This document shows, piece after piece, positions 16,947 through 20,612 of a stretch of 33,035 nucleotides of DNA (position 1 is its first letter; the number at the start of each line of letters is the position of its first letter). The DNA lies in NCBI GenBank assembly GCA_035703895.1, contig DASSXJ010000292.1, positions 1 to 33,035 of the forward strand, in the 5' to 3' direction. Origin of the DNA: a bacterium (GTDB lineage Bacteria; Sysuimicrobiota; Sysuimicrobiia; Sysuimicrobiales; Segetimicrobiaceae). The notes under the pieces were generated by a model. It ran no database searches. It saw only the letters and a program-made list of their open reading frames with translations, and was not told the origin of the DNA. The translations under genes were made by a program, and so were the position numbers.

Positions 16947-17945
16947 GTGATCATCGACGTCCACACGCACTTTTTCCCACCCGGGTATCTCGCGGCGCTC
17001 GAGCGGGGACCGGATCCTTACGCCATCGACCGGGACGCCGCGGGGCGCACGATCCTGACCCTCCACGGCGCCCGCATCCTGACCATGACCCAGGAGATGA
17101 CGTCTCCCGAAGATCGGCTGACCGATATGGAGCGGCTCGGAGTCGATCGCCAGATCGTCTCGGTGACGATCCCGAACGTGTACTTCGGACCGCCGACCCG
17201 CCGGCACGACTTGGCCCGCATGGCCAATGACGGCCTGGCCGAGCTCACCCACCAATTCCCACGGCATTTTGCGGCCCTGGCAAGCGTCCCGCTCGAGGAC
17301 CCGGAGGCGGCGATTCGCGAGCTCGACCGCGCAATCTTGAATTTGGAGATGGTGGGCGTCATCCTGGGAAGCAATGTGGGCGGCCGCTACCTCGACGATC
17401 CGGCGTTCATGCCGTTTTTCGAGCGCGCGGAGGCTTTGCGGGTCCCCATCCTCGTGCATCCGATGCCCCCGGCAGATCCGGACCCGACCTTCACGCGGGG
17501 GCTCGTGCCCCTGCTCGGGTTCGTGTTCAACACTTCGGCGAGCGTCGCTCGAATGGTCCTGGCGGGGGTCTTCGAACGGCTCCCGAAGCTCCAGATGATT
17601 GTCGCACACCTCGGCGGGACCCTCCCCTATCTGATGCAGCGGCTCGATAACGGCTACCGCGCCTACCCGGAGGCCCGGGCGACTCTCCCGCACGTCCCCA
17701 GCCATTACCTCAAGCGCCTCTACTACGACACGGTGTCCTTCTCGGTCCCCTCGTTAGAGTGTGCGCTGGGCGCGGTGGGACCCGAGCACATCGTGATGGG
17801 CACCGACTACCCGCACGTGATCGGCGACATCGGCGCAGCACTGGAAAGTGTCCGGTCGCTCGCGGTTCCACCCCCGGCGATCGCGGGGATCCTCGGAGAC
17901 ACTGCCGCCCGATTGTTTCCGCGGCTGGTGACCCGGGCAAAATAA
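16947..17945 (+). CDS. ACMSD-like amidohydrolase, metal motif intact
   Basis: A 332-residue TIM-barrel enzyme of the amidohydrolase_2 family. The metal motif is complete: IDVHTHFFP (His6, His8), LVHPMPP, IVAHLGGTLPYL, and the catalytic Asp in GTDYPH. Members decarboxylate or hydrate aromatic and related acids. The start is GTG 16947 with GAGGGA about 7 nt upstream; upstream in-frame sequence belongs to the overlapping permease. It is the last gene of the operon 14384-17945. Having one intact and one altered amidohydrolase in the same operon suggests divided labour or a heteromeric enzyme (inferred). Confidence 0.87.
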   Translation: MIIDVHTHFFPPGYLAALERGPDPYAIDRDAAGRTILTLHGARILTMTQEMTSPEDRLTDMERLGVDRQIVSVTIPNVYFGPPTRRHDLARMANDGLAELTHQFPRHFAALASVPLEDPEAAIRELDRAILNLEMVGVILGSNVGGRYLDDPAFMPFFERAEALRVPILVHPMPPADPDPTFTRGLVPLLGFVFNTSASVARMVLAGVFERLPKLQMIVAHLGGTLPYLMQRLDNGYRAYPEARATLPHVPSHYLKRLYYDTVSFSVPSLECALGAVGPEHIVMGTDYPHVIGDIGAALESVRSLAVPPPAIAGILGDTAARLFPRLVTRAK

Positions 17946-18101: not shown

Positions 18102-19076
18102 TTGACCACCGAAGCCAGACCCGACGACTCATCCGGCACGCTCCTTTCGGAGCGTCCTTCGGCTGACCCGAATCCTGCCGAACTGTATCTCGCTGGCTGC
18201 TCGCCGCCGTCACGGGAGGGAACCCGTGCCGCCCTCAGTACGATGGCGGCGCTGCTCACGGCGGGGCACGGAACCGTACAGACGCTGGCGTGGCATCTTC
18301 TCAGGGATGGACACGTGGAGGAACTCCGCGCCGCGCTCGCCGCGCGATATCAGGCCGCGGCCGCCAAGAGAATGCTGGCCGCGCTGCGGGGAGTCCTCAA
18401 GCAGTGCTGGGAACTCGGACTCCTCCCGCCCGAGGAGTACCAACGCGCCCATGCCGCGGCCGCCGTGGGTGGACACCCGGTGGCCCGAGGCGAACTCCGC
18501 TCGGTGTTCGAGTCCTGTGCTGAGGACGGACCGCCGGCCGTGGGGCGGGGCGGCGCCGTGCGGACGCTCTTGTATGGAAACGGCGCGAAGGACAGCAAGG
18601 CGCTTCCCGTGCCGCCCGTGAGAGGGAGCGCCATGTCGATGGAGCAGCTCCGTCTCCGCAGAGTGGCCCCGCGGGAAGCGATCGCGCATGCGCTGTGGGA
18701 GGCCGGCGCCTGCCTCAGGTCATCGGCGTTCTGCGCGAGCCTCGCGATGCTACGAAAGGCACTCGACCTATGGAGCACGGACTATCGCGAGCGGCACGGG
18801 TTCGACGGCGACCGCGGTGAGGGCGAGCCCGGCGACCTGGACCGGCGACTGACGAAGATCGCCGACGAAAACAAGATCTACCGCGATGCGATCCACACGA
18901 TCCTCGACTGCCTCGGCCACGACGCGGTCAGGCCCGAGATGGGCATCGTCTGTCGCGGGGGATATGTGAACGGCTACGACGGGTACGCAGTCACGCGGAT
19001 CAAAGAGACGTACCGCAACCTCCACGACCTGGTGGTCACCCTCATCACCGCGACCACGCCCGAACTGCCCCTCTAA
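18102..19076 (+). CDS. Chimeric protein: truncated tyrosine-recombinase N terminus joined to a DUF4145-like domain
   Basis: A 324-residue protein in two parts. Residues about 24-135 look like the SAM-like core-binding domain of phage integrases: NPAELYLAGCSPPSREGTRA, then KRMLAALRGVLKQCWELGLL. The catalytic domain would begin at VGRGGAVRTLLYGNGAKDSKAL (148-168). There the usual G-L-R-R-S-E with the first active-site Arg reads GAKDSK, and the rest of the recombinase, including its Tyr, is absent. Residues about 188-316 (REAIAHALWEAGACLRSSAF, then LDRRLTKIADENKIYRDAIH) resemble DUF4145, a helical domain found with restriction and defence proteins. The start is TTG 18102 with GAGG about 8 nt upstream. 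It may be a decayed fusion or a real new architecture. A 156-bp gap with nothing recognisable precedes it. Confidence 0.6.
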   Translation: MTTEARPDDSSGTLLSERPSADPNPAELYLAGCSPPSREGTRAALSTMAALLTAGHGTVQTLAWHLLRDGHVEELRAALAARYQAAAAKRMLAALRGVLKQCWELGLLPPEEYQRAHAAAAVGGHPVARGELRSVFESCAEDGPPAVGRGGAVRTLLYGNGAKDSKALPVPPVRGSAMSMEQLRLRRVAPREAIAHALWEAGACLRSSAFCASLAMLRKALDLWSTDYRERHGFDGDRGEGEPGDLDRRLTKIADENKIYRDAIHTILDCLGHDAVRPEMGIVCRGGYVNGYDGYAVTRIKETYRNLHDLVVTLITATTPELPL

Positions 19077-19082
19077 CCGGAC

Positions 19083-20612
19083 ATGCCCTCCACACCGGCC
19101 GACCCCCTTCGGGATCTCCGCCCGCAGCTTGCGATGATCCAGGACCTCCAATCGACGGTCGCTGTGCTGCGCTGGGACCAGGAGACCTACATGCCCCCCG
19201 GAGGGGCGGCCGGACGCGCGGAAGTTCTCGCCACGCTCTCCCGCCTCGCGCACGAACGATTTGTGTCAACAGCGACGCAGGACCTGCTCGACGCCGCCCG
19301 CCCGTTGGAGGATCGCCTCGACCCGGACTCGGACGACGCGGCGTTGATCCGGGTGACGCGGCGCGACCTCGAGCGCGCGCGGAAACTCCCCGCCGAGTTT
19401 GTCGCCGAGCGGGCACGGGCGGCGTCCCGGAGCGTCCATGTCTGGCGGGACGCCCGGCCGCGCAACGACTTCGCCGCGTTCCGGCCCGCCTTGGAGCAGA
19501 TGGTGGAGTTGGCGCGGCGGACGGCAGATTACCTGGGCTACGTCGAGCACCCGTACGACGCCCTCCTCGACAAGTACGAGCCCGGGATGACGTCCCGGGA
19601 GGTTCTGGACCTCTTCGCCCGCCTGCGCGAAGCGACCGTCCCCCTCGTCCGCGCGATCGCCGGGCGTGCCTCGGCGATCGACGACAGTCCGGTTCGACAG
19701 GATTACGGCGAAGAGCCGCAGCGCAGGTTTGGGCTGACGATCATCCAAGCCTTTGGGTTCGATACCGCCCGGGGGCGCTTGGACACCTCCGCCCATCCGT
19801 TCTCCACCGGGTTCAACCGAGACGACGTTCGGATCACCACCCGGTATCCCCGCCGATCGCTCTCGGCGATCTTCGGCATGTTTCACGAATCGGGGCACGC
19901 GATGTACTCTCAGGGCACGGCCCCGTCCCTCGAGCGTACCCCACTGGCCGGCGGCGCCAGCAACGGCATCCACGAATCACAGTCGCGCCTGTGGGAAAAT
20001 CTCGTGGGTCGGAGCCGGCCCTTCTGGCAGCACGCATTTCCGGTGTTGCACGAGCTGTTCCCGGAGCAATTGAGGGCCGTGGATGCGGAGAGATTCTACC
20101 GCGCGGTGAACCGCGTCGAGCCAAGCCTGATCCGCGTCGAAGCCGATGAGGTGACCTACAACCTCCACATCATTCTTCGGTTCGAACTCGAACGGGCGCT
20201 GGTGGCCGGCGAGCTCAACCCCAGTGATCTCCCCGAAGTCTGGAACGCGAAGATGGCGGAGTATCTCGGAGTGACCCCGTCGACCGACGCGGACGGCGTG
20301 ATGCAGGACATTCACTGGCCGAGCGGGCTGATCGGCTACTTCCCCTCCTACACGATTGGCAACGTCGCCTCGGTCCAGCTGTTCGAGGCCGCGCGGCGGG
20401 CGCACCCGGACCTTCCCGATCAGATCCGGCGGGGGGAGTTCGCCTCCCTCTTGACCTGGCTGCGAGCGAACGTGCACAAGCACGGCCGGAAGTTCTTTCC
20501 GCGAGACCTGCTCGTGCGGGCCACGGGCGGTCCGCTCACCCCCGAGCCCTATCTCCGATACCTCCACGAGAAGTTCGGGGAGATCTACGAGGTGCGGACT
20601 CCGGACGCGTAG
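19083..20612 (+). CDS. Carboxypeptidase M32 (Taq/Pfu type)
   Basis: A 509-residue zinc or cobalt metallocarboxypeptidase that removes C-terminal residues from peptides in the cytoplasm. The metal site is HESGH (268-272), with the third ligand Glu298 in GIHESQSR. The family motif region HPFSTGFNRDDVRITTRY (238-255) and a C-terminal IGYFPSYTIGNVASVQLF are also clear. The length is standard for M32. The ATG at 19083 lies 7 bp after the chimera's stop, with no clear ribosome site. It faces the opp operon, and its stop abuts the opp stop with no gap. It may recycle peptides brought in by that transporter (inferred). Confidence 0.93.
   Translation: MPSTPADPLRDLRPQLAMIQDLQSTVAVLRWDQETYMPPGGAAGRAEVLATLSRLAHERFVSTATQDLLDAARPLEDRLDPDSDDAALIRVTRRDLERARKLPAEFVAERARAASRSVHVWRDARPRNDFAAFRPALEQMVELARRTADYLGYVEHPYDALLDKYEPGMTSREVLDLFARLREATVPLVRAIAGRASAIDDSPVRQDYGEEPQRRFGLTIIQAFGFDTARGRLDTSAHPFSTGFNRDDVRITTRYPRRSLSAIFGMFHESGHAMYSQGTAPSLERTPLAGGASNGIHESQSRLWENLVGRSRPFWQHAFPVLHELFPEQLRAVDAERFYRAVNRVEPSLIRVEADEVTYNLHIILRFELERALVAGELNPSDLPEVWNAKMAEYLGVTPSTDADGVMQDIHWPSGLIGYFPSYTIGNVASVQLFEAARRAHPDLPDQIRRGEFASLLTWLRANVHKHGRKFFPRDLLVRATGGPLTPEPYLRYLHEKFGEIYEVRTPDA

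Follow-up and report, generated by a model that had tools for sequence, protein, structure and literature searches.

A tyrosine recombinase core-binding domain joined to a putative DUF4145-like domain in a probably non-catalytic protein of Candidatus Segetimicrobiaceae

Introduction

The catalytic domain of tyrosine recombinases carries an RKHRH pentad and a tyrosine nucleophile. Simple tyrosine recombinases consist of a core-binding (CB) and a catalytic (CAT) domain (PMC8138268), and TnsF of Tn6022-like transposons is an inactivated recombinase that serves as target selector (PMC10293859). DUF4145 is a HEPN family that, in the parts of the survey available to us, often occurs in defence proteins and is fused to REase, helicase, TIR, sigma-HTH, AbiJ-NTD1 and other domains; a recombinase is not among the DUF4145/HEPN fusions given in those parts (PMC3710099).

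Here we describe a gene from a soil bacterium, contained in a 33,035-nucleotide stretch of DNA (the window), that joins a recombinase core-binding domain to a DUF4145-like domain. The original prediction, made from the letters of the window, knew of no described protein of this layout. We likewise found no description of a recombinase-DUF4145 protein in the open-access literature, where absence is not proof: no paper in the open-access collection searched combined DUF4145 with 'tyrosine recombinase', and those combining it with 'integrase' were unrelated to such a fusion as judged from titles and abstracts.

Domain layout of the fusion gene

By ORF reading, the gene is real: its frame stays open over 324 codons, begins with TTG and has no internal stop. 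It is divided as follows.

18102..19076, + strand: whole gene, recombinase core-binding domain plus DUF4145-like domain (324 aa; open frame, four full-length homologues)
18165..18572, + strand: residues 22-157, core-binding (SAM-like) domain of a tyrosine recombinase, running into the start of what was the catalytic domain (hhalign, AlphaFold2, Foldseek)
18573..18671, + strand: residues 158-190, variable linker in place of the catalytic domain (column comparison, dN/dS)
18588-18590, + strand: codon of residue 163, the catalytic Arg I position, here Lys (alignment to Cre)
18672..19073, + strand: residues 191-324, putative divergent DUF4145-like helical domain (hhalign with shuffle controls; profile match to a DUF4145 protein of genome G005)

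Direct scans of Pfam, NCBIfam, PHROGs and PADLOC returned only sub-threshold matches for the whole protein and for each half, and a phmmer search of the PDB gave nothing usable. A PqqD/NNH6 identity for the N half was rejected, as its matches lay below the cut-off.

A tyrosine recombinase core-binding (SAM-like) domain is present in the N half. Residues 22-157 matched the recombinase core-binding domain and the start of the catalytic domain at 99.9% in hhalign, over 145 columns and with 39% identity, and shuffled controls reached at most 0.9%. AlphaFold2 gave a pLDDT above 90 at residues ~21-122. The first Foldseek match for the model was 3nrw, a haloarchaeal integrase N-terminal domain (prob 0.98), followed by other integrase N-domains and Cre variants with weak E-values, which are expected since the remainder of the model is poor. 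Relatives bearing a catalytic domain are 32-45% identical to the N half; intact relatives come from Acidobacteriota, Chloroflexota, Cyanobacteriota and Myxococcota.

Column comparison with intact relatives separated what the domain has kept from what it has lost. The fusion family retains most of R38, R76, R96 and the L.ALRGVL..CW helix, and the net charge of the N-domain is +3 to +11, compared with +2 to +10 in intact relatives. The conserved columns that persist belong mainly to the hydrophobic core (L45, A49, W64, L92, A93, L95, V98, C102 and W103). R39-T40, T72 and T87 show little or no variation among the sampled intact relatives but are lost in all four family rows compared, and DNA binding may therefore be gone; also missing are D150, Arg I and the Glu of RRSE. 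The family N half had no direct profile match to Cre, so we make no residue-level claim about DNA contacts from Cre.

The tyrosine recombinase catalytic domain is absent from the fusion protein. The frame departs from the recombinase alignment after LLYG, where intact relatives read AGLRRSEAVAL, and alignment to Cre (LLRIAE motif) puts the catalytic Arg I in the continuation of those relatives, GAGLRRSEAVAL. In four family rows this region reads NGAKDSKAL, TEGKQDKAT, DGPGSARVV and NGFKPDPAA, with K/K/G/K in the Arg I column, and in the homologue of genome G002 the column is deleted. The C half has no match to recombinases (0.1% in hhalign). With catalytic domain and Arg I both missing, the protein cannot recombine DNA by itself.

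Five relatives from the same recombinase subfamily (L033:1549-3105, L035:7497-8768, L036:7899-8843, L043:7866-8813 and L052:7944-8831; four from Myxococcota/Deltaproteobacteria and one from a 'bacterium') end at SPEDLRRADAS or similar. They have Glu for the box II His and lack the Tyr-bearing C-terminus, no continuation being seen in other frames. These proteins form one branch (support 99/99) and, as judged from these features, are a second, independent group predicted to be catalytically dead.

In the family alignment, residues 191-324 carry an invariant EAI.H.LWEA..CLR..AFCA.LAMLR.A..LW signature. Comparison of the C half with an alignment of 28 DUF4145 domains gave 92.7% and a score of 42.3 in hhalign, against 13.1 for the reversed control and 18.8 for the best of 60 column shuffles, which reached at most 3.8%. 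When the nearest DUF4145 relative and six atypical domains were left out, the score fell to 32.6 (68%). The alignment spans about 72 columns, of which the last third aligns poorly. Across 43 genomes, the best non-self match of the C-half profile was G005:C12:22979-23167 (E 1.7e-4), a place that the Pfam DUF4145 model finds independently (E 6.3e-6). The structure model of this half is of low confidence (pLDDT 50) and its Foldseek matches were uninformative. On the profile matches, we provisionally assign the C half as a divergent DUF4145-like (HEPN-clan) domain. An R..GN...H-type motif occurs in 20 of the 28 DUF4145 domains and is not conserved among the five fusion homologues, a single species keeping R-x6-H near its place; RNase activity is therefore unlikely and has probably been lost.

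Of the relatives found, a 255-aa DUF4145 protein in a genome of the same family (L060:1072-1839 in G005) comes closest to the C half. It still has a GDLGAH motif at the place where the fusion family no longer has one, and is possibly a sister of the domain's source.

These results agree with the original prediction of a 324-codon frame without stop that starts with an integrase core-binding domain, reaches the opening of the catalytic domain with the active-site Arg lost (gone in 5/5 homologues) and has a C-terminal half resembling DUF4145. The prediction also placed a joint near codon 170; a joint exists, but it takes the form of a fast-evolving linker at about residues 158-190, with no sharp point.

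Distribution, origin and selection

A single-protein search of 100 related genomes recovered four full-length homologues, three in the same genus (G001, G002 and G003) and one in another genus of the same family (G007). Their identity to the window protein, across the two halves, is 46-61%. The original prediction would have abandoned the idea of a new architecture had full-length homologues not existed, and this search did not refute it. A profile search found the same five carriers, which are 5 of the 12 genomes of the family including that of the window, and all five hosts are species of Candidatus Segetimicrobiaceae, phylum Candidatus Sysuimicrobiota. A single-sequence scan of GTDB contigs gave no match; an alignment-based scan of these contigs gave 27 loci, 24 of them matching the N half only, in Acidobacteriota, Chloroflexota, Cyanobacteriota, Myxococcota and other groups, and three, from the family, matching both halves. 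The fusion gene was not found in viral contigs or in phage or plasmid collections.

In the tree, the N halves of all five carriers group together as one clade (support 100/99) and are shown, on this phylogeny, to share a single origin, which fits a single fusion. A search of 43 genomes of the phylum gave no intact recombinase of the same subfamily, so the ancestor probably either came from outside or was lost later.

Pairwise dN/dS ranged over 0.21-0.48 for the N half and 0.30-0.58 for the C half; the linker gave 0.4-1.3, and synonymous sites were near saturation in some pairs. This half-by-half comparison, which the original prediction had suggested, places both halves under purifying selection, with a freer linker that drifts. 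That both halves are kept by selection argues strongly against a decaying chance fusion.

Genomic neighbourhood

In the window, the fusion gene is flanked by two genes on the same strand.

16953..17945, + strand: upstream neighbour, amidohydrolase (PF04909, by Pfam), adjoining the fusion gene in three species
19083..20612, + strand: downstream neighbour, M32 carboxypeptidase (PF02074; Pfam 7e-175), 6 bp past the stop of the fusion gene

The three genes stand in the same order and are co-directional in G000, G001 and G002, and the gap to the M32 gene is 6, 26 and 75 bp in the three species. This neighbourhood is not conserved in G003 and G007, where M32 linkage is absent; the neighbour in G003 is, by inspection, a chromate-transporter-like protein. 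In the six genomes of genera g2 and g3, the M32 gene is present and the fusion gene is not. We saw no defence genes near the fusion gene, whose annotated neighbours are metabolic or transport genes by Pfam, the fusion protein had no PADLOC match, and its surroundings bore no sign of a mobile-element setting.

The G007 homologue (L005:867-1529, L030:4693-7788) lies beside a GAF-SpoIIE-HATPase-STAS signalling protein, without the amidohydrolase/M32 pair, and a small ORF overlaps its 3' end.

Discussion

The function we infer for the fusion gene product is that of a domesticated, non-catalytic host protein acting as a DNA-associated adaptor or regulator, a reading to which we give about even odds (roughly 0.5). 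Homology and the tree place a single origin of the gene in the ancestor of Candidatus Segetimicrobium and a sister genus, where the core-binding domain of a probably acquired tyrosine recombinase lost its catalytic domain and was joined to a helical domain of DUF4145/HEPN-like type. What remains of the recombinase fold most likely would still make weak contact with DNA or with a partner bound to DNA. The helical domain would serve in dimerisation or bind a partner or RNA, and would have no RNase activity. In favour of this reading we counted the full-length homologues in one clade, the domain matches of both halves, the selection on both halves, the absence from phages and plasmids, the net positive charge, R38/R76/R96, the kept N helix and the stable position among metabolic genes in three species; against it we counted the loss of R39-T40/T72/T87, the poor C-half model, the reduction of the DUF4145 match to 68% and the gene contexts of G003 and G007. 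The view that a recombinase gene was captured and reused, one of two offered by the original prediction, is supported by five species in which the recombinase part persists in a stable protein of two domains, the second of them DUF4145-like. A more ambitious version, in which a disarmed recombinase DNA-binding domain and a disarmed HEPN domain would form a new class of bacterial regulator or effector that recognises old recombination sites, or DNA like them, and brings a partner there, is tentative and in our judgement unlikely.

The main rival to a DNA-associated adaptor is a domesticated protein that no longer touches DNA, with both domains acting only as protein-protein scaffolds, for example with the products of the co-directional genes. 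The predominance of hydrophobic core among the kept N-half columns, the loss of several invariant polar columns and the short, operon-like gaps of 6, 26 and 75 bp before the M32 gene in three species speak for such a scaffold, but the net positive charge and R38/R76/R96 are largely kept, the G003 and G007 copies are unlinked to M32, and genera g2 and g3 have M32 without the fusion gene; we hold this reading to be possible, if doubtful. That the C half belongs to some other, unnamed helical family, DUF4145-like in its first two or three helices only, would be compatible with any of these readings and would accommodate the ~72-column alignment, its poor last third and the lack of Pfam recognition. 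The score far above shuffled and reversed controls, together with a DUF4145 protein as independent best profile match, makes that rather unlikely.

It is quite improbable that the protein is a toxin with HEPN-type RNase activity, or a defence effector, that its recombinase domain guides to DNA, as the DUF4145 family's place in the HEPN superfamily and its frequency in defence proteins might suggest, going by the available parts of PMC3710099. The R..GN...H-type motif of 20/28 DUF4145 domains is not conserved here, R-x6-H persists in one species only, PADLOC gave no match and the annotated neighbours are metabolic; on the same grounds the 'defence-type' label of the original prediction did not hold. 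Its other option, a decayed mobile element fused by chance and now a pseudogene in progress, could explain why the catalytic domain is absent and why some family members lack the gene. We reject it as very improbable, given the same joint in five species, the absence of stops, purifying selection on both halves and one origin, and the 46-61% identity of the homologues to the window protein speaks against recent transfers of one decayed copy.

A domesticated host protein of this kind would provide a clean bacterial case, with one origin, of a recombinase that loses catalysis and is kept by selection within a new two-domain architecture. As far as the available parts of the survey extend, its recombinase part is a fusion partner apparently not yet listed for DUF4145/HEPN domains, and the protein offers a small, testable setting in which to ask how a core-binding domain functions after the loss of its catalytic domain.

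We know of no DUF4145-like partner in domesticated Crypton genes. Those genes resemble the fusion family in that tyrosine-recombinase elements became host genes, and differ from it in being eukaryotic, according to the parts of PMC3212892 available to us. With simple tyrosine recombinases the family shares the core-binding domain and the YL..L.P.SR...AL..IA and L.ALRGVL.ECW motifs, but it lacks the catalytic domain, Arg I (5/5) and the Tyr-bearing C-terminus, and carries another C-terminal domain. The EA..C...A..A..MLR..L helices and those that follow are DUF4145/HEPN-clan-like (PF13643), whereas the family's GN..AH-type motif is not conserved and the domain lies below Pfam detection. By analogy, the nearest functional precedent is TnsF, which is likewise recombinase-derived, without a working catalytic site and kept for another job (PMC10293859). 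Architecture and context differ: TnsF combines zinc fingers with two predicted tandem CB domains and a remnant recombinase region, and is encoded in a transposon (PMC10293859), whereas the fusion protein, outside any transposon context, has one CB domain and a DUF4145-like domain.
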